Below the pieces are notes generated by a model. The model was given only the letters and a program-made list of their open reading frames with translations, searched no databases and was not told the origin of the DNA. 49,671 bases of DNA, taken from Alphaproteobacteria bacterium (lineage in GTDB: Bacteria; Pseudomonadota; Alphaproteobacteria; GCA-2731375). Positions 9,170 to 37,947 of the stretch are shown here, piece after piece. The translations under genes were made by a program, and so were the position numbers. Every line of letters starts with the position of its first letter. Position 1 is the first letter of the stretch. Location: NCBI GenBank assembly GCA_021776235.1, contig JAJFGG010000172.1, positions 1-49,671 of the forward strand. The letters run 5' to 3'.

Positions 9170-10178
9170 CGTCGCGAAAATAGAAGCGCCCCTGCTTTCA
9201 GTCGATGGCCTGGTCCGTCATTTTGATGTTTCGGCGCCATTTCTCAACCGCTTAATCGAACGGCTGGATCGCGCTTACGTCAAGGCAGTGGATGGCATCA
9301 GCTTCGATATCGGGCGGGGCGAAACTTTCAGCCTGGTGGGTGAATCCGGTTGTGGCAAGTCCACCGTGGCACGCCTGATCGTTGGCCTGTATCAGCCAAC
9401 TGCCGGTTCAATTCAATATGAAGGTGTTGAAATCGGACCGCGCGAGGCCGCCGCCGACCGCAAACGCATTCAGCCCCACATGCAGATGATTTTCCAGGAT
9501 CCCTTTGCCTCGCTCAATCCCCGCTGGCGGGTTGCTGACATTATCGCCGAGCCGATCAATGTACGCGGGTTGCTGAAGGGTAGGGCCGAAATCATGACGC
9601 GGGTCGGCGACTTGCTGAGCCAGGTCGGGTTGTCGCCGGCGGACCGCGAGCGTTTTCCCCACGAATTCTCGGGCGGCCAGCGGCAACGTATTTCCATCGC
9701 CCGTGCCCTGGCGGGAGAACCGGAATTCCTGGTCTGTGATGAACCGACATCGGCTTTGGACGTTTCCGTGCAGGCGCAGATTTTGAACCTGATGAAGGAA
9801 CTGCAGAACCGCCTGGGTCTGACTTACCTGTTCATCTCCCATGATTTGGCGGTGGTCTATCATGTCTCGACCAGAGTGGGAGTGATGTATCTGGGCCGGC
9901 TGGTGGAATGGGCTGAAACCAAGACCCTGTTCGAAAATCCGCGGCACCCCTATACCCGGATGCTGCTGGACGCCATTCCGGATCTTGAAATGAGTGGCCG
10001 CCAGCGGATCCCCGTGGCTGGCGAGGTGCCCAGCCCGATCAATCCGCCGTCAGGCTGTGCCTTTCATCCCCGCTGCCCCCACGCCGAGGCCCGTTGCCGA
10101 ACAGAAATGCCCTTGCCTCGCAACTATGACGGCGTCCACGTCGCTTGCCACGCAGTCGCCGACGGCCGCATCGGTTGA
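9162..10178 (+). CDS. ABC transporter ATP-binding protein, DppF/OppF type
   Basis: This is the second ATPase subunit of the importer. It shows GESGCGKST (Walker A), FQDPFASLNPRW (Q-loop), FSGGQRQRISIARAL (signature), FLVCDEPTSALD (Walker B) and SHDLAVV (switch). The C-terminal extension has the cysteine pattern SGCAFHPRCPHAEARC. The residues around position 30 (LIERLDRAYVKAVDGISF) form the insertion usual in DppF. The likely start is the GTG at 9162, which overlaps the previous stop by eight bases. A farther upstream GTG at 9075 would place 29 unlike residues in front and is rejected. It is the last gene of the operon. Confidence 0.92.
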   Translation: MNDVAKIEAPLLSVDGLVRHFDVSAPFLNRLIERLDRAYVKAVDGISFDIGRGETFSLVGESGCGKSTVARLIVGLYQPTAGSIQYEGVEIGPREAAADRKRIQPHMQMIFQDPFASLNPRWRVADIIAEPINVRGLLKGRAEIMTRVGDLLSQVGLSPADRERFPHEFSGGQRQRISIARALAGEPEFLVCDEPTSALDVSVQAQILNLMKELQNRLGLTYLFISHDLAVVYHVSTRVGVMYLGRLVEWAETKTLFENPRHPYTRMLLDAIPDLEMSGRQRIPVAGEVPSPINPPSGCAFHPRCPHAEARCRTEMPLPRNYDGVHVACHAVADGRIG

Positions 10179-10415: not shown

Positions 10416-10778
10416 ATGCCGAAAATTCTTCTGGTCGAAGACAACGAAATGAACCGTGACATGCTTTCGCGTCGACTGGCGCGCAAGGGCTATGACGTTA
10501 CCATGGCCGAAGATGGCCAGCGCGGCGTCGATATGGCGGAAAGTGAAAGCCCCGATTTAATCCTGATGGACATGAGTTTGCCGGTGATTGACGGCTGGGA
10601 AGCGACACGGCGGATCAAGGGTTCGGTGGGTACCGGTAGTATCCCGATCATCGCATTGACGGCGCACGCCATGGCGAGCGATCGGGCAAAGGCGATGGAC
10701 GCCGGCTGTGACGACTACGATACCAAGCCGGTTGAACTGACCCGTCTGCTGGAGAAGATCGAACGATTGCTCGCGTAG
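10416..10778 (+). CDS. Single-domain response regulator (DivK/CheY-like)
   Basis: This 120-residue protein is a lone receiver domain with no output domain. It shows the acidic pair in LLVEDNEMNRDML, the phospho-acceptor Asp in LILMDMSLPVIDGW, the Thr in IALTAHAMASDR and the Lys in DTKPVEL. The AHAM...GCDDYDTKP pattern is that of the DivK-like subgroup. It probably shuttles phosphoryl groups between a kinase or HPt and another partner. A strong GGGGGGAGG precedes the ATG at 10416. It leads a signalling cluster and is paralogous to the receiver at 36530. Confidence 0.92.
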   Translation: MPKILLVEDNEMNRDMLSRRLARKGYDVTMAEDGQRGVDMAESESPDLILMDMSLPVIDGWEATRRIKGSVGTGSIPIIALTAHAMASDRAKAMDAGCDDYDTKPVELTRLLEKIERLLA

Positions 10779-10819
10779 AACCAGAATTGAACGATGGCGC
10801 AGGTGAAGGACGACCTTTG

Positions 10820-11887
10820 ATGTTGGGTAGTAAGGCGCGAATGATATCGACGACCGCACTGGCCGCGGTCATGGCAATTGGCACTGTCGCTGCCGCAGGT
10901 ACGGTGACGGTAGGTGCCTGTAGACCCGAGCGGCTGATCCGGCTGGCTGCCGGGGCCTGTCGGCCTGCGCCATGTGCCGCCAGGAATGGCAACAACCCTT
11001 GTGCCGCAAAAAAGGCGTGTAATCCATGTGCAGCCGCGAAAGCCTGTAATCCCTGCGCCGCAGGCAACCCCTGCACCGCAGGCAAACCTTGCAACCCCTG
11101 CCTCGCCGCTGGTATGGCGACGGATTGCGTGGTTCCGCGCCTCGTCGCGGAAACTCGCGGCGGCAACCCATGCGCCGTTGCAAAACCGTGCGGTGCCAGA
11201 AAAGCGTGTCGTCCCTGCGCGGCAGGAAATGCCTGCAATCCGACCGCGGCCAGAAAGGGATGCGGTCCTTGCGGAGCTCGCAAGGCTTGTAACCCTTGTG
11301 CCGTGAAGAGGGCGTGCAACCCCTGTGCGGCAACAAAGGCCGCCAGCCCATGCAGTCCCTGTGCCGCCGGCATGAAGGAGCCGCCGGAATTAAGCGAGGA
11401 GGAGGCGGTGGCCGCCTACCGTTGCGTTGGCCCGCCCATGTCCATGGCCTACCGCAAGTCCTGTCATCCGGTAGCGGTGACCTACCGGGGTTGGCGCCGT
11501 TTCAGCCGTATATCCTATCCGGCAGAGGCCCATGGTGTCCGCTTCATGAACAATTACGCGAATGAGATCGCCCGCGCCGATTATGGAAAATGGGAGGCGG
11601 CGGGAGAAATGCCCACTGGTTCGGTTCTGGCCAAAGACAGCTTCATCGTCGGTGACGACGGCAAAATCAGAGTTGGCCCGCTATTCGTGATGGCAAAGGG
11701 GGCCGCGGGGTCCAGCGATGCCATGCGCAATTGGAAATACACCATGATCATGCCCGGTGGCAGCGTGCGCCAAGATGTCGCTATCCAGAAATTCTGCAAT
11801 GACTGCCACCGCCGTGCCGGTGCGCAGGATGATTTCTTGATGTTTCTGCCTCTGCCGTTTCGGATCTCAAAGGGACTGGGCAGATGA
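10820..11887 (+). CDS. Secreted CxPC-repeat / cytochrome P460-like fusion protein
   Basis: This 355-residue exported protein has three parts. An N-terminal signal peptide (ISTTALAAVMAIGTVAAAG) is followed by a low-complexity cysteine-rich region, residues 34-181, with about 25 cysteines and eight CxPC motifs (CNPC, CRPC, CGPC, CSPC) spaced by Ala/Lys-rich linkers. The C-terminal part, about 195-350, resembles cytochrome P460: an HGVRFMNNYANEIA-like stretch, GSVLAKDSFIV, and a c-type haem motif CNDCH at residues 326-330. P460 family members oxidise hydroxylamine or NO using a covalently bound haem; whether this one does is unknown. The start is the ATG at 10820 behind GAAGGA; a TTG at 10787 is less likely. 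It is followed at once by a cupredoxin, a plausible electron partner. Confidence 0.75.
   Translation: MLGSKARMISTTALAAVMAIGTVAAAGTVTVGACRPERLIRLAAGACRPAPCAARNGNNPCAAKKACNPCAAAKACNPCAAGNPCTAGKPCNPCLAAGMATDCVVPRLVAETRGGNPCAVAKPCGARKACRPCAAGNACNPTAARKGCGPCGARKACNPCAVKRACNPCAATKAASPCSPCAAGMKEPPELSEEEAVAAYRCVGPPMSMAYRKSCHPVAVTYRGWRRFSRISYPAEAHGVRFMNNYANEIARADYGKWEAAGEMPTGSVLAKDSFIVGDDGKIRVGPLFVMAKGAAGSSDAMRNWKYTMIMPGGSVRQDVAIQKFCNDCHRRAGAQDDFLMFLPLPFRISKGLGR
10919..11362 (+). repeat. Degenerate tandem repeat encoding (K)ACNPCAA units
   Basis: The DNA repeats units of roughly 24-30 bases that read as KACNPCAA or GNPCAA in the P460-like gene. The units are diverged at the third codon position, so selection on the protein rather than recent slippage is suggested. 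The reading frame is maintained throughout, with one 20-residue interruption near 11115-11160 that lacks the repeat. Confidence 0.75.
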
Positions 11888-11907
11888 TATTGCAGAGAGG
11901 TTGGCGA

Positions 11908-12231
11908 ATGATGCGCCTGCTCACCGCACTGATAGTCACCTGCGCGATCATCCTGCCGGCAAGTTTCGCGTTTGCCGAGGAATACACTGTCTCACAGAAG
12001 AAAAGGCGGTTCGACCCCAAACAACTGAACGTCAAGCCTGGCGATACGCTGCTGTTTGTGAATGACGACCGTTACGCCCACAACCTCTTCACCGATAGTC
12101 CCGGTTTCGAGTTTGATGTGCGCAAGCAAATGCCCGGCGACAAATACCAGCTAAAGATCGAAAAACGCGGCACCTTTGAAATACGCTGTGTCATCCATCC
12201 GCGCATGATAATGACGGTTGTTGTTGAATAA
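11908..12231 (+). CDS. Amicyanin/plastocyanin-like cupredoxin
   Basis: This small periplasmic blue-copper protein of 107 residues has a signal peptide ending near SFAFA. The type 1 copper ligands are all visible: His58 in RYAHNLF, and Cys94, His97 and Met100 in the short CVIHPRM loop, followed by a VVVE end. The two-residue Cys-His and His-Met spacings are those of amicyanin and plastocyanin. It probably carries single electrons in the periplasm. The ATG at 11908 has AGAGG at good distance. A start at 11884 that overlaps the P460 stop (ATGA) is the alternative and would add eight residues. Adjacent placement suggests electron exchange with the P460-like protein. Confidence 0.88.
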   Translation: MMRLLTALIVTCAIILPASFAFAEEYTVSQKKRRFDPKQLNVKPGDTLLFVNDDRYAHNLFTDSPGFEFDVRKQMPGDKYQLKIEKRGTFEIRCVIHPRMIMTVVVE

Positions 12232-12262
12232 CCCGGATGCGAAGAAACGGAGTTAATCCGCC

Positions 12263-12283
12263 ATGAAAAATAGCCCGCTATGA
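12263..12283 (+). other. Possible six-codon leader ORF overlapping the kinase start
   Basis: An ATG preceded by CGGAG opens a six-codon frame (MKNSPL) whose TGA overlaps the ATG of the hybrid kinase gene (ATGA). The kinase ATG itself has no good ribosome site, so re-initiation after this mini-ORF could drive its translation. It may be chance. Confidence 0.3.
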
Positions 12284-14652
12284 AGTTGCGCCCCCAATTA
12301 TTGATTGGGTTTCTCTCGCTGACGATGTTGATCCTGTTCATGGGCTCGTACGGCATTTTTAGCCTGAACCGGATCTATGAATTCACCCGCGCGATGTACG
12401 ATGGGCCGCTGATGTCGATCAACTTCGCCCGCAGTGCACAGCACCATTTTTCCCGCATCGAAGTGACGTTGATGGAATTGGCCGCCGCGGTTGAAGACGG
12501 GAAACGAGAGGCTCTGATCAAGGAGATCGAGGAATACCGCGAGATTTTTTCTGAAGACCTGGATATCGCCGGAGACCGTGCAACCAGCCCCGAGGGCCGG
12601 GCGGCAATCGGGCGTATCCGCATTGCTCTGGTCGGATGGGATGTTGCCTGGGCCGAATCGGAGACCGCCTATTCCAACAATAACATGGCTGCCGCGGCGC
12701 GCCCGCAGGCCCGCGTGAAAACGGCAATAGCTGCGGTTAACGAGGAAATCGAGGTTCTGGTCGAGTTCGCCGCGCAGGAAGGTTACGACTTCAGAGGCAT
12801 GGCCCAGGACCAAAGCCAAAACGTTATCCAACTCAACTGGATCATCGTTATTCTTGGCATTGTGGGCGGCATATTACTCGGCTTGTTGATGGCCTGGCGG
12901 ATCGTCAATCCGACCGTTCGCATTACCAATACTTTGCGCGAACTTTCTGCAAACGAACGCAACGTCGATATCCCTGAAACCGGCCGCAAGGACGAAATCG
13001 GGGACATTGCGCGCGCTGCCGCAACGTTTCAAAAAACCACGATTAGCTTTCAGGATAATTTGCAGACAGCCAATGCAAATTTGGAAGAAACCGCTGAAGC
13101 GGCCCGCCAGGCTAATCATGCCAAGTCTGATTTCCTGGCCAAAATGAGCCATGAACTGCGCACACCACTCAACGCTATCATCGGCTACAGCGAGATGTTG
13201 TACGAAGAGGCGGAGGATTTGGGTGACGAAGGCTATATGCCCGATCTGGTGAAGATTCAGTCGGCCGGCAAGCATTTACTGGCTCTGATCAATGACATCC
13301 TCGACCTATCCAAAATCGAAGCCGGACGCATGGATCTCTACATCGAGAGTTTCAATATACGCGGAATGATTGATGAAGTGGCCGGAACGATCCGGCCGCT
13401 GGCGGAGAAGAACGACAACCGGCTGGAAGTTGTCTGTGCTGATGACCTTGGCGATATGTTGAGTGATTTGACCAAGGTTAGGCAGACTTTATTCAATCTG
13501 TTGAGCAACGCGTGCAAGTTCACTGAGCGGGGCGTGATCAGGTTGGAAGCGGTGCAGGACAGTGCGGGGGGTGGCGATTGGATCGAATTCCGCGTCGCGG
13601 ACAGCGGCATCGGCATGACCCCGGAACAACAACGCAAAGTGTTTGACGCCTTTATCCAGGCAGACTCATCCACCACCCGGAATTATGGTGGGACTGGCCT
13701 GGGCCTGGCAATCACCAAGAGTTTTGCCGTTATGCTGAAGGGTGATGTAACGGTGAGAAGTGAACCAGGTACGGGTTCCACATTCACCATCCGCCTGCCG
13801 CTACGGGCCCCGACGATGGGTATGGTGACGGCAGATGATGAGACAGATGGCATCGAAAGTACCGAAGGGCCGATTGTCCCGTACGACGCCAAAACAATTC
13901 TGGTTGTTGATGACGACCCAGTCGCCCGCGACTTGTTGCGCCGTCACCTCGGCTTTGGTGGCTACCGGGTTGAAGTAGCTGCCAACGGCGAGGACGCTAT
14001 ACGTCTGGCGCGGGAGATTTCGCCTGATGCCATCACCCTTGATGTCTTGATGCCGCAAATGGACGGCTGGGCCGTACTGGGTGCCCTGAAGGAAGACCCG
14101 GAACTGGAGAAAATTCCCGTTACCATGTTGTCGATCATTGATGACCAGCATATTGGCTTTACACTTGGTGCCTCTGACTACCTCACCAAGCCGATCGACC
14201 GAAACAAGCTGCTCACTGTGCTTGCCCGGCTGTGTCCCGCCAAGGAAGAAGTTCGGGTTTTGATTGTAGAGGACGACGCCCCTACCCGGGATTTGGTGCG
14301 GCGGACGCTCGAAAGCAAAAACTGGCATGTAGCAGAAGCTGAAAATGGTATTGTTGGACTACAGCGCATGGCCGAAGCATCGCCTGATCTGGTGCTGCTC
14401 GATCTTATGATGCCGGAAATGGACGGTTTCGAGTTTCTCTCGTGCATGCGTCAAGACGAACGCTGGCGCGGAATTCCGGTCGTTGTGGTTACGGCCAAGA
14501 CTCTTACCGTCGATGATCACAATCGCCTCAGTGACGGCTATGTCGAGAAATTGATCGACAAAAATGAGCAGAATTTGGAGAATTTGCTCGCGGACCTTGA
14601 CGAATTGTTGTCGAATTACGGCCGAGCGGAACCGGCCTCGGCTTTACCGTGA
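12280..14652 (+). CDS. Membrane hybrid histidine kinase with two C-terminal receivers
   Basis: This 790-residue sensor has one membrane helix at about residues 7-27 and a second at about 186-207. Between them lies a mostly helical periplasmic domain of about 155 residues, like a four-helix-bundle sensor. Then come HAMP (about 208-262) and a DHp domain with His291 in [19 protein letters not shown]. The HATPase follows with its N box ([12 protein letters not shown]), G1 (VADSGIGM) and G2 (GGTGLGLAI) motifs. Two receivers follow, with Asp588 in ITLDVLMP and Asp708 in [12 protein letters not shown]. There is no HPt domain, so transfer to a receiver partner may need a separate HPt. The stop overlaps the GTG of the cyclase gene. 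The input signal is unknown; redox from the upstream P460/cupredoxin pair is an inference. Confidence 0.9.
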
Positions 14653-16244
14653 GCCAGTCTTTCCAGGATGATCAGCGGGCCAGGCGGGCGCTTCTGGCCA
14701 ATATGCGGCAGCAATTGTTGACCCCTGCCGATGCTATTGTCGGTTACGGTCAAATACTTCGGGAAGAGGCCGCGCGAATTGGCGGCGACGATCTTGCCGA
14801 GGATCTTGCGTGTATCGCCGCCGCCGCCCAGGCGCTCTATAGTCTGGTTGATCAGCGCCTTGGCGAAGATACTGCGAGGGAGCTGAGCCTGAGCGGTGAG
14901 GTGGACGAGGCACAGAGAATTCTCCGTCACGATTTTCGGAATCCTCTCAACGCCATCAAGGGTTATGGCGAAATGGTGTTGGAAGACCTTGAGGGTCTGA
15001 ATGGCCAGACACTGACCCCGGACGTAGTAAAATTGCTGGGCGAAGTTAACCGGCTCCTGGCGCAACTTGATGATATCATTGATTTCTCCCGCCTTTTCGA
15101 TGGTGATGGGTCAAACGCAGCGTTAGCGCAATCCAGTGCCACGGCTTCGGATATTCTGGACACGGTCCGGCCGGTCGCCGGAGCGCCGATAACAGCGGCG
15201 GAAGCGGGCCGTATCCTGGTGGTCGATGACATCGAAGCCAACCGCGAACTGCTCTCGCGCCGGCTTGGCCGCGAAGGCCATGATGTTGCCGTCGCCGCCG
15301 GCGGCGTAGAGGCGCTGGAAATGTTGCGGCGGGATGAATTTGATCTGGTCCTGCTGGATCTGATGATGCCCGATTTGAACGGCTTTGAAGTGTTGGCGCA
15401 GATGAAAGCCGATGACGATCTGCGCAATGTACCGGCGATCATGATTTCCGCGCTCAACGAAATGGACAGTGTAATTCGCTGCATTGAAGCCGGTGCCGAA
15501 GACTATCTTTCAAAACCCTTCGATCCGGTGCTGCTTCGCGCCCGCATCAATGCCTGTTTGGAAAAGAAGTTGTGGCGTGACCGTGAAAACCTTTATCTCG
15601 ACCAACTGGAAGTAGAGAAGGCGAAGAACGAAAAACTGCTGTTGTCGATCCTGCCGGGGAAGGTGGTGGAGCGTCTGAACAAGGGGGAGACAATAATTGC
15701 CGACCGCTTCGATGATGTCAGCGTATTGATCTCCGACCTGGTCGGGTTTACGGAATTTTCTGCCGGCACACCACCCGCGGATCTGGTCGAATATCTTAAC
15801 TGGTTGTTTTCACATTTTGATATCCTGGCAAGCGAACTTGAGGTGGAAAAGGTCAAGACGATCGGTGATTCATACATGGTGGTTGCGGGTATGCCGCAAG
15901 CACGGGCGGATCATGCACAGGCCGCAGCGCGCATGGCGCTGGGCATGATGGAGGCGTTGGAAAAGGTCAACGCCGAAATCGGTCAAACTTTCCGGGCTCG
16001 AATCGGCATCCATTCGGGACCCGCGGTTGCCGGCATTATCGGTACTCATCGATTTGTCTATGATGTCTGGGGCGACACCGTGAACGTAGCCAGCCGCCTT
16101 GAGGGCAGCAGTCTGGCAAGCCGCATCCAGATATCTGAATATACCGCCAATCAACTCGGCAGCGGGTTTGCGTTAGAGCCACGTGGCGGCATTGAGATCA
16201 AGGGTAAGGGCCGGATGAATACCTTCTTTCTCAATTCGGGCTGA
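14649..16244 (+). CDS. Tandem-DHp / receiver / class III adenylate cyclase
   Basis: This 531-residue cytoplasmic protein combines domains in an unusual order. Residues 10-70 look like a DHp helix pair whose phospho-accepting His is Gln21 ([20 protein letters not shown]). Residues 85-150 are a second DHp with His94 intact ([20 protein letters not shown]). No HATPase follows. A receiver (about 190-310, Asp237 in [12 protein letters not shown]) and a class III cyclase (about 345-530) complete it. The cyclase has metal Asp residues in LISDLVGF and TIGDSY, the adenine-selecting Lys (KVKTIGD) and Asp (YDVWGD), and the transition-state Asn and Arg (TVNVASR), so ATP is the likely substrate. GTG start, overlapping the kinase stop. 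Confidence 0.88.
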
Positions 16245-16327: not shown

Positions 16328-17170
16328 TCAAATGTCGATGATATCCAGGTCATTACCGACAATCACCTCGCCGGAGAATTTTGCTGCATCAAAGTCCGGT
16401 TCGACCCCGGGCAGGTGGTGGGTGAGCACGACCTTTGAAACATTCGCCCTGATGGCAATGTCGATGCAGTCTTGTGGGCTGGCATGAAACTCGTGCAAAC
16501 GTTCGATGATCCGCCGGCGGGCGGGCGGCAGGTCATTTGATGGGGCGGCCGCGCAGGCATCGATGACCAGTACGTCGGCGCCTTGGGTAAACGCGATGAG
16601 TTCCTCGCACATTGCCGTGTCCCCCGTAACCACCAGGGACCGGCCGTCAAAAGTAAAACGAAAGGCGAGCGCGTGCATTGGCGGATGGTAGACGGGCCCG
16701 GCTTCTACCAGACAGCCGGAAATATTCTCCGACCAGCCAACTGGCACATCCCGAACCTCGATGTCATCGAAACCAGAGCGCGGAAAGCCTAAATCCATGG
16801 CCCATTCAGCCTGCTCTCGGTAGTACGACTCGACCAGGCGATGGTGCATGTCCGAGGTGCCGATGGGCCCCGTTACGGTCAGTTTGAGTCGCCCCGCATT
16901 CCAACTCCCCCACACGAATGCAGGATAGCCAAGGATATGGTCCCAATGCATGTGGGTAAGCGCGACGTTGTGAACCTGTTCCAGCGCTACTCCAGCCGTC
17001 AACAGCTGGCCGACTACACCATCCCCGGCGTCAACCAGCATGTGCCCGGCGCTGCCCCATTGCACCAGGGCGGCGGGATGCTGGCGGTCCAGGTTGGGGC
17101 GAGGTGACCCGGTGCCAAGTAGGGTAATTCGAAAGGCATCCCGATCATTGCCGGCGTTCACTACGGACAT
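16328..17170 (-). CDS. Metallo-beta-lactamase-fold hydrolase, RNase Z / AtsA-like
   Basis: This 280-residue protein has the metal-binding motif THMHWDH, a LLGTGSPRPN start, a VTGDT strand holding the bridging Asp, and LTHHLPG near the C-terminus. That pattern belongs to the RNase Z/arylsulfatase-like branch of the MBL fold. RNase Z, phosphodiesterase or other ester hydrolase functions are all possible. It lies next to an adenylate cyclase and class II cAMP phosphodiesterases share the fold, but nothing specific to that class was seen. AAGGAG sits seven bases before the ATG. The gene converges on the cyclase gene. Confidence 0.8.
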   Translation of the reverse strand: MSVVNAGNDRDAFRITLLGTGSPRPNLDRQHPAALVQWGSAGHMLVDAGDGVVGQLLTAGVALEQVHNVALTHMHWDHILGYPAFVWGSWNAGRLKLTVTGPIGTSDMHHRLVESYYREQAEWAMDLGFPRSGFDDIEVRDVPVGWSENISGCLVEAGPVYHPPMHALAFRFTFDGRSLVVTGDTAMCEELIAFTQGADVLVIDACAAAPSNDLPPARRRIIERLHEFHASPQDCIDIAIRANVSKVVLTHHLPGVEPDFDAAKFSGEVIVGNDLDIIDI

Positions 17171-17457: not shown

Positions 17458-19479
17458 ATGGCAACAAAGACCAAAACCAGGACAGCCACATCCAACGTTC
17501 AGCTATCGGCGGAGACGGCGGAAACGATCTATACCACCATGCGCCGCATCCGCGCGTTCGAGGAGCGCACCACCGAACTGTTCGCGCAAGGCGAGGTCAA
17601 GGGCACGGCGCACAGTTATATCGGCGAGGAAGCGGTGGCCGCCGCCGTCAGCGCCAACCTGCGTGACGACGACTTCATGGCCTCGAACCACCGGGGCCAT
17701 GGCCATTGCATCGCCAAGGGCGCTGATCAGAGTCTGATGATGGCGGAGTTGATGGGCCGCGAAAACGGCTATTGCGGCGGTTTGGGCGGCTCCATGCATA
17801 TCGCCGACCTGAGCCTTGGCATTCTGGGCGCCAATGGCATCGTTGGCGCCACCATGCCATTGGCCACGGGCGCCGCGCTGGCCATCAAGCTGCGCGGTGG
17901 CGATCAGGTGGTAGTTGCGTTTTTCGGTGATGGCGCTTCGAACCAGGGCACCTTCCATGAGTGCTCCAACCTGGCCAGCATATGGAAACTGCCGATCCTG
18001 TTTATCTGCGAGAACAATCAATATGCCTTGACTACCTCGTACCGGGATACCACCTCGGCCAGACAGATATCGGACCGGGCGGCGGGCTATGCCATGCCCG
18101 GCGTCACCATTGACGGCAATGACGCCGGTGAAGTCTACACAGTGGTCGGCGATGCGGTGGAGCGGGCCCGGGCCGGCGAGGGGCCAAGCCTGATCGAATG
18201 CATGACTTACCGGTGGGGCCAGCATTCCATGCGGGCCAATCTGCGCGACCCGCGGCCAAAGGAGGAATATGACGCCTGGATCGCCCGTGATCCCATCAAG
18301 CTGTTGGAAGAACGCATGCGGGCGGAAAAGACCGTGCCCCGCAAGCGGATCGCCGAAATCGGCGAACAAGTGGTGCAGGATCTGGAAAGCGCCGTTGCCT
18401 TCGGCGCCCAGGGGGCTGAACCCACGGTAGAGCGGATGCTGAATTCCGTCTATGCCGCGCACGCGGATTATGACGAACCAGGGCCCGTTGGCGGTCGGGA
18501 GATTACCTATGTGGAAGCCTTGAACGAGGCCATGGGGTTGGAAATGGCCCAGGACGACCGGGTTTTTGTCATGGGCGAGGACGTGGGTCGGACCGGGGGC
18601 ATATTCGGTGTAACCAAGGGCTTGTGGGAGCGTTTCGGAGATGACCGGGTCCGTGATACGCCAATCACCGAGGTCGGCTTCACCGGCGCCGGGGTGGGCG
18701 CGGCGATTGCCGGCATGCGCCCGGTGGTGGAACTGCAAATCTTTGATTTTGTCGCCTTGACCATGGACATGCTGGTCAATCAGGCAGCCAAGTTCCGTTA
18801 CATGCTGGGCGGCCGGCCAACCGTGCCCATGGTCGTGCGCGGCCCGCAGGGCGGCGGCATCCGCATGGCGGCGCAACATAGCCAAAGTCTGGAAGCCTGG
18901 TTTACCCATGTGCCGGGCCTGGTGGTGATGGCGCCGTCCACGCCTTATGACGCCAAGGGCATGTTGATCGCGGCGATCCGGGACGACAATCCGGTGATTT
19001 TTCTCGAGCACAAGATGCTCTACATGGAAAGCAAGGGCGAGGTGCCCGAAGGGGACTACGCCATCGCCATCGGCAAGGGAGACATCAAGCGCCAGGGCAG
19101 CGATGTCACCGTGGTGGCGACCATGACCATGGTTGGCCGTGTGCTCGCCGCGGCCCGGGTGTTGGAACGCGAAGGGATTTCCGTCGAGGTGGTGGATCCA
19201 CGCACCCTGCGCCCCCTGGACGAGGAGATCATCCTGAATTCCGTGGCCAAGACCAACCGTTTGTTGATTGCCCACGAGGCCTGGAAGAATGGCGGCTTTG
19301 GCGCCGAGGTGGCGGCGATGGTGGTGGAAAAGGGTTTTGATGATCTGGACGCACCGATCGTGCGCGTCGGCGGCCTGGATGTGCCCATGCCCTACAACGA
19401 CGCCCTGGAACGTACGGTGATCCCGTCCCAGGATCGCCTGACCCAGGCGATCCGTGATTTGGTGCGGAATGGCATCTGA
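17458..19479 (+). CDS. Fused E1 alpha-beta subunits of a thiamine-dependent 2-oxoacid/acetoin dehydrogenase
   Basis: One polypeptide of 673 residues joins both E1 chains. The alpha part (about 1-320) shows the thiamine diphosphate motif starting at GDG157-159 (GDGASNQGTFHECSNLAS, ending in ENN) and the GSMHIAD loop. The beta part (about 335-673) starts at REITYVEALNEAM and holds GEDVGRTGG, TPITEVGFTGAGVGAA and a transketolase C-terminal domain. The fusion decarboxylates a 2-oxo acid (pyruvate, branched-chain) or cleaves acetoin and passes the acyl group to a lipoyl E2. No E2 or E3 is in the window. The ATG at 17458 is preferred because homology begins just after it; an AGGAGG lies some 24 bases upstream, too far to be ideal. 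An HPt gene overlaps its end. Confidence 0.87.
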   Translation: MATKTKTRTATSNVQLSAETAETIYTTMRRIRAFEERTTELFAQGEVKGTAHSYIGEEAVAAAVSANLRDDDFMASNHRGHGHCIAKGADQSLMMAELMGRENGYCGGLGGSMHIADLSLGILGANGIVGATMPLATGAALAIKLRGGDQVVVAFFGDGASNQGTFHECSNLASIWKLPILFICENNQYALTTSYRDTTSARQISDRAAGYAMPGVTIDGNDAGEVYTVVGDAVERARAGEGPSLIECMTYRWGQHSMRANLRDPRPKEEYDAWIARDPIKLLEERMRAEKTVPRKRIAEIGEQVVQDLESAVAFGAQGAEPTVERMLNSVYAAHADYDEPGPVGGREITYVEALNEAMGLEMAQDDRVFVMGEDVGRTGGIFGVTKGLWERFGDDRVRDTPITEVGFTGAGVGAAIAGMRPVVELQIFDFVALTMDMLVNQAAKFRYMLGGRPTVPMVVRGPQGGGIRMAAQHSQSLEAWFTHVPGLVVMAPSTPYDAKGMLIAAIRDDNPVIFLEHKMLYMESKGEVPEGDYAIAIGKGDIKRQGSDVTVVATMTMVGRVLAAARVLEREGISVEVVDPRTLRPLDEEIILNSVAKTNRLLIAHEAWKNGGFGAEVAAMVVEKGFDDLDAPIVRVGGLDVPMPYNDALERTVIPSQDRLTQAIRDLVRNGI

Positions 19480-19810
19480 GCCCCGGCCGGCCATCGATTT
19501 GATACATCTGGGCACCTATACCCAGGGCGACCAGGCCCTGGAACGCGAGTTGCTCAGCATGTTTCTGCCCAGCGCCCAAGGCTATATAGATACCATGAAG
19601 GATAGCCAGGACGACGGGGCCGACAGATGGTGGACGGCGGTCCATAGCCTGAAGGGCGTTGCCCAGGGGGTTGGCGCCTGGGAAGTCGCCGTGCTGGCGG
19701 AAGCGGCGGAAAGCCACCGCGACAGCGCGCCACCGGTTCGCCATGACGATGCCGGGGCATTGCAGGCGGCCCTGGAACGCGTGCGTTGTTTTGTCGCGAA
19801 CTTGACCTGA
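19469..19810 (+). CDS. Orphan histidine phosphotransfer (HPt) protein
   Basis: This 113-residue helical protein is a stand-alone HPt domain. The phospho-accepting His59 sits in WWTAVHSLKGVAQGVGAWEV, which has the H-S-LKG-A pattern of HPt proteins. HPt proteins move phosphoryl groups between receivers. Both hybrid kinases in the window end in receivers without HPt, and each has receiver-type partners, so this protein could be their missing carrier; that is inference. The ATG at 19469 overlaps the end of the E1 gene by 11 bases, so it is probably co-transcribed with it. A GTG at 19454 is an alternative start. Confidence 0.8.
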   Translation: MASEPRPAIDLIHLGTYTQGDQALERELLSMFLPSAQGYIDTMKDSQDDGADRWWTAVHSLKGVAQGVGAWEVAVLAEAAESHRDSAPPVRHDDAGALQAALERVRCFVANLT

Positions 19811-32518: not shown

Positions 32519-35500
32519 GTGAGCCAAGAAAAAGCCGTCGAACAAGATCGCCTGACCCGGCTTCTCCATAGCGTGTCTATTGAGGCCAATTTGGCCGTGA
32601 CCGTGTCTGAGTTTCTGCAACGCTGTCTCGGCGAAATCGGCCGCGGTGCGGGATGGCCGGTGGGTCACGTCTATCTTTTGCGCAACGGCAGCGGTGACGA
32701 ACTGATCCCTGCCAAAATATGGCATCTGGCGGACCCCAAGAAATTTGCCGCCTTTCGGGAAGTGACCGAGAGAACCGGATTTCAATGGGATGTGGGCCTG
32801 CCGGGCCGTGTGTTGGCCTCCGGCAAGGCGGCATGGATCGTTGATGTCACCAAGGATCCCAATTTTGTGCGGGCTGAGCAGGCCAGGAACATTGGTGTGC
32901 GGGCGGGCATGGCTTTCCCCATCCTGGGCGGCAACGGAATACTTGGCGTTCTCGAGTTTTTTTCCACCGAAGCACGCGAACCGGACCACGAGGAATTGGA
33001 GGTTCTGGCGAGCGTTGGCCGGCAAATAGGCAATACGATGGACCGGAAAAAACTGGAGGAGGACGCCAAGCGCAAAGAGTCGGAACTGCATGCCGCGCTG
33101 CAGAATATGTCCGATGGCATGTTGATGGTCGATGGCGATGGACGGCTGGCATTCGTAAACGATCAATACAAGGCGATGACCCAACTGCCGCCGCAGCATT
33201 ACAGGATCGGCAGTCCCATGCGCGAATTGCTTGCTGAATTCGCCAAGGCGGGCCTGTATGGCGCGGGTGAGCCCCATAAGCTGGCGGAACAGCGTTTCCG
33301 GGAGATATACGACCGGCCGGTCAAACTGCAGACGGAAATGAAAATGTCGGATGGCCGCACAATCGAGTTCCGCAAGGCGCCGGTCGAAGGCGGCGGAGCA
33401 ATCGTTAACACAACCGATATAACGGCACGAAAATCAGCAGAACAAGACCTGGCGGCGAGCGAGGCTCGAATCCAGAACATTTTGGACAACAGCCCCGCCG
33501 GCATCTCAGTGGTGTCGCTTGGCACGACAAAGCGCCTTTATTGCAACGCACGCTTCAATGAAATGTTCACCGGCGATCCCAAGACATCTCTCGAAGGAAG
33601 CGAGGCTGCCGACAGTTTTGTTGACCAGAATGATATGCATAACATGCTGCGGCTCATGCGTGAACATGCCGGTAGCTATAATGTAGAAATTGAAAGAAGG
33701 CGTCGCGACGGCACTAAATTCTGGTGTTTCCATAGTTGGCAGCCAGTGAACCTTTGGGGCGAAGATGCCTACCTGTGCTGGCTCTACGACATTACAGAAC
33801 GTCGGCAGGCGGAGACATCCCTGGCTCGGGAAAAGAGAATTATCGAGCTGACGCTCGAGAATATGGACCAGGGCATTACCATGTATGACAATGACCTTAA
33901 TCTGGTTATTGCCAACCAAAGGGTCATAGAACTGGGCGATGTTCCATCCGATCTTATGGTGCCCGGAAAACCACTCGCCGATGTGTTTCGTTACAATGCG
34001 GAACGCGGCGACTACGGCCCCGGCGTCATAGAGGATCAGGTCCACGATCGGGTCGAACTGGCGCGGAAATTCGAACCGCACCAGTTCGAGCGCGCCCGAA
34101 CGGATGGCCTGGTCATGGAAATTCGCGGCCGGCCGGTGCCCGAAGGCGGCTTTGTCAGCACCTATACGGATGTCACCCAGCGAAGACGTTCGGAAGAGGA
34201 AGTGGCCGAAAAAGAGGCCCTGATCCGCCTGGTGCTAGAGAACATCAGTCAAGGCGTGGTGATGTATGATGCAGATTTGCGCCTGGTCGCCTGGAACAAG
34301 CACTATCAGGAATACTTGGGCTTTACCGATGACCTGATGCAGTCGGGAGAGCCATTGATCACCTTCATGTACGATTTGGCTGAACGGGGTCAATATGGTG
34401 TGGGCGAGCACAAGACCCTGGTCGATCAGCGCCTGGAGTATCTGACCGACGGTCAGTCACGACGCGGCGAAATCACCTTTGATGATCGCACCTATGAAGT
34501 TCACAAACAGCCGACGCCGGACGGCGGTTTGGTCATCACCTATACTGATATTTCCGAGCGCAAGGCGGCCGAGGCGGAAATTCAAAAGCTCTCCAGCGCG
34601 GTCGAACAAAGCCCGGTGTCGGTGGTGATCGCCGATTTCGAGGGCACAATTGAATATGTCAATCCGATGTTCGTCCAAACGACCGGGTTTTCTGAAGCAG
34701 AGGTCATCGGCTACCCGCTGCGAATCCTGAAAAAGGGTCAGCTGGAAGACGATGACTTTGCCAAGCTCTGGGACACGCTACACAAGAGTGAGACATGGCG
34801 CGGTGAATTTTCCAATCACAAGAAATCGGGCGAACTCTACTGGGAGAGTATTTCAATCTCGCCGTTGACGCGCAGTGATGGGGTCCCCACACATCTAGTG
34901 GCGGTAAAGGAGGACATTACATTACAGAAAGGCCACGAGAGAGAACTGGAGCAGGCCCGGGACGATGCCGAAACGGCCACGCGGTCCAAATCGGTCTTTC
35001 TGGCCAATATGAGCCATGAATTGCGGACGCCCTTGAATGCGGTCATCGGCATCACCGAGATGCTTGAAGAGGACGCCAGGGACGACGATCTGGAAGACTA
35101 TATTGAACCCCTGCAGCGCGTCACCCGGGCCGGCAAGCATCTTTTGGAATTGATCAACGATATTCTGGATCTCTCCAAGATCGAGGCGGGCCGGCTGGAA
35201 TTCCATTTGGAAGACATCGGCCTCAAGGCCCTGGCCGGTGATTTGGGTCTGACGGCTGAACCGTTGGCGAAGAAGAATGAAAATTCGCTCAGAATAGACT
35301 GCCCGGACGATATCGGCACCATGCATGCCGACGTGACGCGGGTCCGCCAGGTGGTTCTCAATCTGCTCTCCAACGCCTGTAAGTTCACCGAGCAGGGTGA
35401 CGTTTCGCTTGCTGTCAGCCGCGAGGGCGGCGCTGACAAGGAATGGGTCAACTTCGAAGTCAGCGATACAGGCATCGGCCTTGCGCCGGAAAAATTGGAA

Positions 35501-36508
35501 CGCTTGTTCGAGGAATTCTCCCAAGCCGACACGTCGACCACGCGCAAATATGGCGGCACCGGCCTTGGCCTTTCCATCAGCCGGCGGCTATGCCACATGA
35601 TGGGCGGCGATATTTCCGTTACCAGCGTGCCCGGCAGTGGCAGTACCTTCACGGCCCGATTGCCGGCCGTTGTCGGCGGCGCCCTGCTGGCGCCAGAAGG
35701 CGAGGCGCCCCTGCCGGTCGCCGGTGAAGATGGTGCCGAAGTTCCGGATGCCACGGGCAGCGCCACGGTGCTTGTGATCGACGATGATGCCGACGCCCGC
35801 GACCTGATGCGCCGCATTTTGAGCCGCGAGGGCTTCGATGTGATCACCGCTGACAGCGGCGCCAAGGGGCTGGCGGCGGCGCGGCGCTATGACCCGGTTC
35901 TGATTACCCTGGACGTGCAGATGCCGGACATGGATGGCTGGACCGTCCTGCATGACCTGAAGGCAGATCCCGAATTGCGGCAAATTCCTGTCGCCATGCT
36001 GACCATCATGGATGAACAAAAAAAAGCCTTCGCGCTGGGCGCTTCCGAATACCTGAATAAACCGGCCGATCGGAACGACTTGCGTCAACTGCTGGACCGT
36101 CTGCGCGTCGGCAACCCGGATTTCCATGTTCTTGTGGTTGATGATGAGGCATCGACCCGGGATAGGTTGTGCCGGATGTTACAGGGCGAGGATTGCCGGG
36201 TCAGTGAGGCTGAAAATGGCCGTTTGGCGCTGGTCTGCCTGGATGGCGGTGTGCCGGACCTTATCCTGCTTGATTTGTTGATGCCTGAAATGGATGGTTT
36301 CGAATTTCTCGCCGCCCTGCGGCAACGTCCCGAGTATGAAGATATTCCGGTGATCGTGGTTACCTCGGCAGATTTGAGCGAGGCCGACCATCGCCGCCTC
36401 GATGGCGGTGTGGTCAAGGTTTTGCAAAAGAACCTGGCCACGGAAGCAGAACTGATTGCGCAGCTGCGCGACCTGACCCACTCCTTTCAGACCGGTACAG
36501 ACAAATAA
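32519..36508 (+). CDS. Soluble hybrid histidine kinase: GAF, five PAS, kinase core, two receivers
   Basis: This 1329-residue sensor has no membrane helices. A GAF domain (about 15-180) is followed by five PAS-type domains at about 190-305, 318-440, 440-560, 565-685 and 690-810. The first, third and fourth share the (L)-(E/Q)NM-(D/S)-QG-(V/I)-MYD pattern and look internally duplicated. His833 lies in [20 protein letters not shown]. The HATPase has [20 protein letters not shown] and GGTGLGLSI. Two receivers follow ([13 protein letters not shown] and [12 protein letters not shown]). The GTG start has AGGTGA five bases upstream. With the next two genes it forms a module parallel to 12280-16244, but with cytosolic input. 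Confidence 0.9.
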
Positions 36509-36529
36509 CGTCGGACAGAGACCTATTGC

Positions 36530-36895
36530 ATGAAAATACTTTATGTTGAAGACAACGACGACAACGTCTACATGCTGACGCGCCGCCTGGGCCGCAAAGG
36601 TTTCACCGTCATAGTTGCCGGCGATGGTGCCGAGGGCGTGGCCAAGGCGGCCAGCGAGATGCCGGACTTGATCCTTATGGATCTGAGCCTGCCAGTGCTT
36701 GACGGCTGGGCCGCGACTGGACAGATCAAGTCGGCACCGGCCACCGGCCACATACCCGTTATCGCTCTGACTGCCCATGCCATGACCGGGGACCGTGAAA
36801 AGGCTCTGGCGGCGGGCTGTGATGATTTTGACACCAAGCCGGTCGTGCTGGGCCGGTTGCTGGCCAAGATCGAAGCCTTGATTGGTGAGGTCTAA
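36530..36895 (+). CDS. Single-domain response regulator (DivK/CheY-like)
   Basis: This 121-residue lone receiver has YVEDNDDNVYML, the phospho-acceptor Asp in LILMDLSLPVLDGW, IALTAHAMTGDREKA and the Lys in DTKPVVL. It closely resembles the receiver at 10416 (same GCDD-D-DTKPV tail), so the two are paralogues. It sits between the hybrid kinase and the receiver-cyclase gene with gaps of 21 and 5 bases, so all three form one operon. It probably relays phosphate rather than binding DNA. Confidence 0.92.
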   Translation: MKILYVEDNDDNVYMLTRRLGRKGFTVIVAGDGAEGVAKAASEMPDLILMDLSLPVLDGWAATGQIKSAPATGHIPVIALTAHAMTGDREKALAAGCDDFDTKPVVLGRLLAKIEALIGEV

Positions 36896-36900
36896 TCCAG

Positions 36901-37947
36901 GTGGAGCAAAAATCAGCCGCCATCCTGGTCGTCGATGATAATGACGACAATCGCTATACCCTGACCCGGCGCCTGAAACGGCTGGGCTATGGCGAGGTGG
37001 AAATCGCGGAAAACGGACGCGTCGCGCTGGAAAAAATTCAGCGGCAGGCCTTTGATCTGGTTTTGCTCGATATCATGATGCCGGAAGTCAACGGCTACGA
37101 AGTGCTCGAACAGATCAAGTCGCAGAAGGATTTGCGGCATCTACCGGTAATCATGATTTCGGCCGTGGATGAAATCGACAGCATCGTCAAATGCATCAAG
37201 ATGGGGGCCGAGGATTACCTTTCCAAGCCGTTCAATCCCGTCCTGCTTGCGGCCCGCGTCGGGGCCACTCTGGAAAAGAAGCAGTTGCGCGATCAGGAGG
37301 CACGGCATCTGGAGCAGCTGGCGGCGGAAAAGAAGCGTGGCGATGATCTATTGCACGCGATGCTGCCGGCCAACGCGGTCGGAGAATTGCTTGCGACGGA
37401 CCGCGTACAGCCCCGGCGCTTCGAGGACGTCACGGTTTTGTTCTGCGATATCGTAGGGTTTACACGCTATTGCGATGCCCATCCGCCGGAGCAAGTCGTG
37501 GCCGAATTGCAGGCCCTGGTCGGCGGTATGGAGGATATTGTTGCCCGCAATGGACTGGAGAAAATAAAGACCGTCGGAGATGCCTTTCTTGCCACCGCCG
37601 GCCTGCTTGAAGCCAACGATGACCCGGTCACCTCGGCGGTGCGTTGCGGCCACGAGATGGCGGCCCTTAGTCAGCAGATCGAACCGCACTGGCAAGTCCG
37701 CATCGGCCTGCATACCGGCCCTGTCGTGGCCGGCATCGTCGGCCGGCACAAGTTTCTCTATGACCTCTGGGGCGATACGGTCAACGTGGCGGCGCGCATA
37801 ACGGAACAGGCCGCGCCCGGTACGGTCTGTGCCAGTGCCGAGACCTGGGCCCGTGCGGGGGGCATTGGCCAACAACGCCCCCTGGGCGCGGTCGAGATCA
37901 AGGGCAAGGGCGCGATTGAACTTGTCGAAATTCGCAGCCTTGGATAG
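36901..37947 (+). CDS. Receiver / class III adenylate cyclase
   Basis: The 348-residue protein has a receiver (about 8-125, Asp in LLDIMMPEVNGY, Lys in LSKPFNP), a helical linker (about 125-170) and a class III cyclase (about 175-345). The cyclase metal Asp residues are in FCDIVGFT and VGDAFL. The Lys of EKIKTVGD and the Asp of LYDLWGD select adenine, and TVNVAAR supplies the Asn and Arg, so ATP to cAMP is predicted. It lacks the two DHp segments that its paralogue at 14649 carries. A GTG start with GAGG ten bases before is used. Confidence 0.9.
   Translation: MEQKSAAILVVDDNDDNRYTLTRRLKRLGYGEVEIAENGRVALEKIQRQAFDLVLLDIMMPEVNGYEVLEQIKSQKDLRHLPVIMISAVDEIDSIVKCIKMGAEDYLSKPFNPVLLAARVGATLEKKQLRDQEARHLEQLAAEKKRGDDLLHAMLPANAVGELLATDRVQPRRFEDVTVLFCDIVGFTRYCDAHPPEQVVAELQALVGGMEDIVARNGLEKIKTVGDAFLATAGLLEANDDPVTSAVRCGHEMAALSQQIEPHWQVRIGLHTGPVVAGIVGRHKFLYDLWGDTVNVAARITEQAAPGTVCASAETWARAGGIGQQRPLGAVEIKGKGAIELVEIRSLG

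Follow-up and report, generated by a model that had tools for sequence, protein, structure and literature searches.

A cupredoxin and a four-helix receptor as a recurring gene pair in Alphaproteobacteria, seen here between a P460 haem protein and a predicted adenylate cyclase

Introduction

Five genes lie closely packed on the forward strand of an alphaproteobacterial contig (JAJFGG010000172.1, assembly GCA_021776235.1), at positions 10416-16244. They encode a receiver protein, a P460-type haem protein, an amicyanin-like cupredoxin (a blue-copper protein), a membrane hybrid kinase and a class III cyclase. Why would a haem protein and a copper protein be encoded directly ahead of a kinase and a cyclase? 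P460 enzymes act on hydroxylamine or nitric oxide (NO), and an earlier reading, made from the sequence alone, took the run for a periplasmic redox or reactive-nitrogen sensor that feeds a phosphorelay controlling cyclic AMP (cAMP). The window, in what follows, is the whole stretch that was analysed, all 49,671 nucleotides; it is contig C82 in a 174-contig, 6.36-Mb genome.

In the alphaproteobacterial sample, the cupredoxin and the four-helix bundle (4HB) type of sensor found in the kinase form a conserved pair. The genes of the run are the following. Signal peptides are called by eye throughout.

10416..10778, + strand: stand-alone receiver (REC only), gene 1 of the run; Response_reg, 96.3 bits
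10820..11887, + strand: c-type haem protein of the P460 fold, exported (called by eye), bearing a Cys-rich NPC/CxPC arm; Pfam Cytochrome_P460 and AlphaFold2 (AF2) model
10916..11374, + strand: Cys-rich arm within the P460 gene; 25 Cys in 153 residues
11884..12231, + strand: amicyanin-like cupredoxin, likely start 11908; Copper-bind, 35.1 bits (cut-off 21.2), and Cupredoxin_1
12280..14652, + strand: hybrid histidine kinase with transmembrane (TM) helix, periplasmic 4HB sensor, TM helix, HAMP, HisKA, HATPase, REC and REC; Pfam
14649..16244, + strand: DHp(HisKA)-REC-class III cyclase with GTG start; HisKA, Response_reg and Guanylate_cyc

Results

Two profiles were used, one for the cupredoxin (A2, E <= 1e-8) and one for the sensor (A3, E <= 1e-25). 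Both were built solely from the window's family, which makes genomes outside that family an independent test. In a class sample of 289 genomes, 38 matched the cupredoxin profile and 32 the sensor profile; in many genomes the first look scored just a part of the candidates. Of the 28 full-length sensors outside the family, 21 have an A2-type cupredoxin no more than 5 kb away, where 0.10 would be expected. This expectation is computed from cupredoxin numbers and genome sizes; it assumes uniform and independent placement, and related genomes (G286 and G191, for example) are not independent.

As a control, 85 partial matches to the sensor profile, mostly to its HAMP part, were taken from 40 genomes chosen for their cupredoxins, nearly all of which bear them. 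None of the 85 is within 5 kb of a cupredoxin, and the nearest is 36.7 kb away. The main count also holds six partial matches; five of these are in genomes without a cupredoxin, hence the preference for the larger control. In L169, L186 and L202 the copper protein is encoded on the opposite strand.

A further sample covers the phylum with 398 genomes, with about 1.5 kb of flank at the fetched loci. Six more genomes of the class have a full-length sensor match, and the cupredoxin is present at L200-L202. Plasmids were searched with two cupredoxins. One gave no match, the other a single record: L226, on Neorhizobium sp. EC2-8 plasmid NZ_CP147998.1. There, a cytochrome c peroxidase (CCP), a cupredoxin, a 4HB sensor and a GAF-GGDEF-EAL protein stand in a row; several frames are broken, and the CCP and the cupredoxin are split over frames.

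The sensor itself has a recognisable signature. In the window's kinase, 4HB_MCP_1 scores 47.5 bits (cut-off 27), along with HAMP, HisKA, HATPase_c and two Response_reg stretches, and hydrophobic stretches are found at about residues 7-29 and 181-209. Several linked receptors outside the family score below the 4HB_MCP_1 cut-off or have no match. What linked receptors have in common is a motif after the first membrane helix, YDxPLMxINFARxA, at kinase residues 40-53. Its positions are kept as follows: D41 in 33 of 36 linked receptors, P43 in 32, L44 in 36, R51 in 33 and A53 in 36. These counts are from fetched loci (36 linked and 9 unlinked receptors), which are a non-random set, and 10 of the 36 include rows used to build the profile. 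Two methyl-accepting chemotaxis proteins (MCPs, at L150 and L153) and the L086 kinase match the sensor profile beside a P460 gene; they were dropped since they lack the motif.

On the copper side, the type-1 ligand set is present (His, and Cys-x2-His-x2-Met). Across 54 frames, taken from linked loci and some unlinked ones, every ligand position is conserved in 53; the G010 orthologue has Tyr in place of the first copper His, and one other frame has a tail that does not align. The TIGR02657 amicyanin equivalog scores 33.5 bits, below its cut-off of 110.2.

In G028, the two partners share one 709-residue frame. After a sensor-profile match come HAMP, HisKA and HATPase_c, then a hydrophobic stretch, and last a Copper-bind domain scoring over its cut-off. 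The hydrophobic stretch resembles a one-time signal peptide. The shared frame could also stem from the loss of a stop or from a sequencing error.

What surrounds the pair was typed outside the family at 28 linked loci, which are not the same 28 as the sensors above: L158-L174, L176, L177, L185 and L186, plus L115 (family not known), L175, L187, L200-L202 and L226. Outputs were typed by Pfam for part of these, and by profiles built in this analysis for the rest. A kinase with REC is found in 9/28 (L160-L166, L171, L185; Hpt additionally in L160 and L166), and a kinase without REC in 8/28 (L168, L170, L172-L174, L176, L177, L187), one of which (L177) has a stop between sensor and kinase. MCP outputs account for 5/28 (L115, L158, L159, L200, L201), as do GGDEF-EAL outputs (L169, L175, L186, L202, L226), with sensor and output in separate frames in L226. 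The remaining locus, L167, has the Guanylate_cyc output (1/28): here a related receptor and a class III cyclase are directly joined in one protein, with a cupredoxin next to it.

The other neighbours vary as well. A haem-protein gene is beside the pair in 13/28 loci: CCP/MauG in 7, globin in 4, catalase-like in 1 and P460 in 1. DUF4394 is found in 4/28, and none of these types in 11/28. Among nine sensor-profile receptors without a cupredoxin, CCP genes are beside one, and the other neighbour types beside none. The DUF4394 protein adjoins the cupredoxin in the kinase-type sets L161, L162, L164 and L185. Cupredoxin-kinase sets L168, L173 and L187 have DUF3034 and an exported-looking truncated globin beside them.

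Within the window, the claimed five-gene order, tight spacing and GTGA overlap were borne out by open reading frames (ORFs) and Pfam. Every ORF of the run is present where it had been placed, Pfam matches are above cut-off in all five genes, and the domain order is REC, P460 with Cys-rich arm, amicyanin-like cupredoxin, 4HB-HAMP hybrid kinase and DHp-REC-class III cyclase. Intergenic gaps are short; the P460 stop overlaps the ATG at 11884, and the cyclase GTG overlaps the kinase stop. The preceding gene ends at 10178, 237 bases before 10416, and the following gene (16328-17170) is on the opposite strand. Promoter and terminator scans gave a signal no better than shuffled sequence.

The same gene order was also looked for in other alphaproteobacterial genomes, and it was found intact in G010 and partly in G012. 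The sample of the taxonomic order and the family sample are the same 15 genomes, and the complete set is rare in it. Three of these have a cyclase orthologue, namely the window's genome, G010 (77%) and G012 (70%), and two of the three (window and G010) have the full five-gene run. In G010 the gene order is the same at 63-84% identity, with the REC gene in the same place and 84% identical. In G012 the cupredoxin, kinase and cyclase follow in the same order at 59-70% identity. The order of the last three genes is thus kept in both, which makes the run more than chance. The kinase and cyclase homologues do not always occur without the redox genes: all three pairs come with a cupredoxin, and two with an intact P460. 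Four sibling trios, in G000, G003, G004 and G010, have a repeat-P460 gene, then a cupredoxin, then a 4HB receptor with an MCPsignal output, so a similar input trio also precedes a chemoreceptor.

For the P460 protein, Pfam gives 28.8 bits for Cytochrome_P460 (cut-off 27), in ORF 10787-11887. That ORF begins with TTG at 10787; ATG 10820, ahead of a signal-peptide-like stretch, is the likelier start. The last 171 residues were modelled by AF2 with a mean predicted local distance difference test score (pLDDT) of 91.7. The nearest solved structures to this domain model are P460 and cytochrome c'-beta proteins: against McP460 (6hiu) VIA-align gives a Z of 12.8, with a root-mean-square deviation of 2.9 over 129 aligned, and against 8gar Foldseek gives an E of 2.8e-06. 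A PDB search with the single P460-domain sequence matched no P460; a profile search did.

A CxxCH is encoded at 11795-11809, and its C142, C145 and H146 are unchanged in all 43 aligned rows. So is K88 (codon 11633-11635), which aligns with the cross-link Lys of NeP460 (2je2) and with a Met of NeCP-beta (7s5o). A table in review PMC11928373 gives Lys70 and Met79 for these two positions. With the cross-link Lys position kept, the alignment places the window protein on the P460 side, and a cytochrome c'-beta identity was rejected because of that Lys. The distal carboxylate position that is tied to hydroxylamine oxidation (Glu96/Asp102) is a Gly in the 7s5o alignment and a gap in the 2je2 alignment.

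The Cys-rich arm of about 153 residues holds 25 Cys, 8 CxPC and 8 NPC. Since the arm is mostly below a pLDDT of 50 (mean for the full-length model 61.0), no fold is claimed for it. It consists of two low-confidence blocks flanking a strand-helix element, the DCVVPRL segment, with a pLDDT near 95, and the layout is similar in the P460 frames of relatives. The closest P460 relatives are metagenome-assembled genomes (MAGs) labelled alphaproteobacterial and Rhodospirillaceae. Of 80 named P460 loci, many of them cut off by a contig end, 56 have a P460 frame with three or more NPC. A cupredoxin adjoins P460 at 7 of the 80, and on this count repeat-P460 genes were rejected as being always signalling genes. 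At L070-L075 and L077, untyped ORFs that share their starts recur around the repeat-P460 genes of the family.

In the class-wide search, P460 matched in 37 of 289 genomes, three of them in the window's family. Outside the family, a P460 match (E <= 1e-12) is within 5 kb of a cupredoxin only at G208:C122, read by eye; a weaker match adjoins the cupredoxin of G067:C8 (L192). P460 was accordingly rejected as a universal part of the system. Loci L079, L083, L191 and L192 suggest that a P460-cupredoxin redox pair also works alone.

At the other end of the run, the cyclase domain was aligned with adenylate cyclase 9. The metal Asp pair, the adenine-type Lys and Asp, and the Asn/Arg of class III cyclases are all present. 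Because of these residues, the expected product is cAMP rather than cGMP. The cyclase protein has HisKA and REC and no HATPase match in Pfam. A DHp and a REC without a HATPase suggest that it would take phosphate from the kinase. This phosphorelay-to-cyclase output is specific to the window's branch.

The same contig has a second kinase-REC-cyclase run at 32519-37947, with a GAF/PAS hybrid kinase (two REC stretches), a REC protein and a REC-Guanylate_cyc protein. A stand-alone Hpt protein at 19454-19810, 3 kb downstream of the operon, is a possible additional relay partner. The source genome has 42 places with a Guanylate_cyc domain.

Discussion

The best reading is that P460 is a lineage-specific input, cAMP a lineage-specific output, and the cupredoxin the redox messenger of the receptor, where docking, direction and ligand are inferred. 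Compared with the sequence-only reading, the direction was right and the weight misplaced: what is conserved is the cupredoxin together with its 4HB receptor, while the ends, P460 and cyclase, can be exchanged. The idea that the haem/copper pair feeds the receptor gains from the class-wide pairing, the shared frame in G028, the P460 and cupredoxin genes beside MCP siblings, and the cyclase fusion at L167. It is narrowed in that P460 is not a general part. We judge it probable that the five-gene run belongs to a modular system for periplasmic redox sensing.

The proposed mechanism would run as follows. In the periplasm, the exported haem protein, here P460, would react with a nitrogen oxide or a small oxidant; NO or hydroxylamine may be the signal. 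The haem protein would swap electrons with the amicyanin-like cupredoxin. In one of its redox states, the cupredoxin may dock on the periplasmic 4HB sensor, probably at the YDxPLMxINFARxA patch, and so switch the receptor. Phosphate would pass from the receiver domains of the hybrid kinase to the DHp of the partner protein and on to that partner's receiver, which would set adenylate cyclase activity. Tuning or draining the relay is the probable role of the small REC protein. Docking, redox-dependent switching, signal direction, relay order and the substrate of P460 are all putative parts of this scheme.

A number of observations weigh against this reading. Seven of the 28 full-length sensors have no A2 cupredoxin nearby, and three of those (L178, L182, L183), which are also 3 of the 9 unlinked receptors, still have a motif-like stretch. 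Seen from the other side, of the 53 cupredoxin places outside the family just 21 are accompanied by a sensor within 5 kb, and in 4 of the 21 sets (L162, L164, L185, L186) the cupredoxin is 2.9-3.7 kb off. No cupredoxin was seen at the other three of the six further class genomes (L198, L206, L218), nor, in about 1.5 kb of flank, at any of 13 fetched sensor loci outside the class (L203-L205, L208-L211, L214, L215, L217, L219, L224, L225). The closest orthologue, G010, is the one with Tyr replacing the first copper His. No recognised haem neighbour is found in 15 of the 28 linked sets, and the L175 globin is known only from a profile built in this analysis, without a Pfam match, the other three globins being found by Pfam. 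P460 and cupredoxin also pair without such a receptor (L079, L083, L191, L192). In G012 only the 3' part of the P460 gene is left, without the 5' part and the arm, and no REC gene was seen there. Finally, with so many Guanylate_cyc places in the genome, a cyclase beside a kinase is not rare there.

One alternative is that the receptor reads copper. The cupredoxin would then report the periplasmic copper supply, as apo or metal-loaded protein, the P460 arm would bind copper, and the haem partners would be incidental or copper-linked. The cupredoxins do have complete copper sites, the arm has its 25 Cys, and copper could be the common factor of the sets that lack a haem protein. Yet haem proteins recur in 13 of the 28, and no copper pump or chaperone was noticed, though the neighbours are mostly untyped ORFs and no search was aimed at such families. 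We regard a copper sensor as unlikely. P460 and cupredoxin might also just be co-expressed redox or detoxification proteins, with the kinase's 4HB domain sensing something else, untouched by the copper protein. The P460-cupredoxin pairs without a receptor fit this, as do the sensors without a cupredoxin, both in the class (7/28) and outside it (13/13 fetched). In the class, however, receptors of five output types keep the cupredoxin as a neighbour, whereas their haem neighbours vary or are lacking; the cupredoxin shares a frame with the kinase in G028, and the sensor motif is kept in linked receptors. This makes co-expression alone rather improbable.

A third alternative is chance: a cyclase-rich genome, with its 42 places, would have put a kinase-cyclase pair beside an unrelated P460-cupredoxin pair, and of the 80 named P460 loci only 7 indeed have a cupredoxin next to P460. 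Chance is contradicted by a class-wide pairing far above expectation and by the order kept in G010 (63-84% identity) and, for the last three genes, in G012 (59-70%), and we consider it very improbable.

The redox-messenger reading may extend to a general principle in Alphaproteobacteria. A periplasmic electron carrier, the cupredoxin, would be the ligand of a dedicated family of four-helix receptors. The upstream haem enzyme (P460, peroxidase, globin or catalase-like) would define the chemical that is sensed, and the downstream domain (kinase, chemotaxis, c-di-GMP or cAMP) the response. This extension is tentative, a serious possibility rather than an expectation, and is made slightly less likely by the lack of the pairing at the 13 fetched loci outside the class.

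Systems with some of these features exist. In LuxP-LuxQ and TorT-TorS, a separate periplasmic protein also acts via a membrane hybrid kinase, but it is a solute-binding protein, whereas the partner in the window is a blue-copper protein and the sensor is 4HB. The CyaC-type adenylate cyclases of cyanobacteria likewise join phosphorelay domains to a class III cyclase under kinase/receiver control; in the window, kinase and cyclase are separate proteins, and the cyclase protein has no HATPase match. Amicyanin and MauG, electron-transfer partners in methylamine oxidation, similarly combine a small type-1 copper protein with a member of the MauG/CCP family. L158, L159, L200 and L201 have this combination too, but there a 4HB receptor follows.

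The c-type haem chemoreceptors DcrA (Desulfovibrio) and GSU0582/GSU0935 (Geobacter) also use a metal cofactor to read a periplasmic redox or gas signal via a HAMP membrane receptor, according to PMC8396549. There the haem is inside the receptor's own periplasmic domain; in the window the cofactors are on separate proteins. The translation of kinase residues 1-265 (4HB sensor and HAMP) has no cysteine and therefore no CxxCH haem site within the sensor, and a DcrA-type identity was rejected on that ground.

NeP460, McP460 and NsP460, as covered in the accessible text of PMC11928373, have the fold, the CxxCH and the cross-link Lys position in common with the window's P460, which adds the Cys-rich arm, the strand-helix element and its place beside a cupredoxin and a receptor. 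That text describes no receptor-coupled role for P460; one reference title mentions NO sensors for cytochrome c'-beta. A cupredoxin in a copA resistance cluster (PMC8478169) is a separate matter. Literature searches for cupredoxin, amicyanin or P460 with signalling gave, among the papers listed, no such module by title or start of abstract, and nothing was found on a Cys-rich P460; both are weak evidence of absence.

Significance

The recurring pairing of cupredoxin and sensor, with varied inputs and outputs, suggests an undescribed way to wire outside redox chemistry to internal signals. Most bacterial receptors have unknown ligands. The motif, together with the copper protein next door, would tell which class of signal (periplasmic redox state or copper) is read by a whole receptor family with five output types. 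Small soluble domains allow a direct test of the hypothesis. If it is true, cupredoxins gain a role in signalling, and a P460-type protein may be an input to cAMP instead of a metabolic enzyme.

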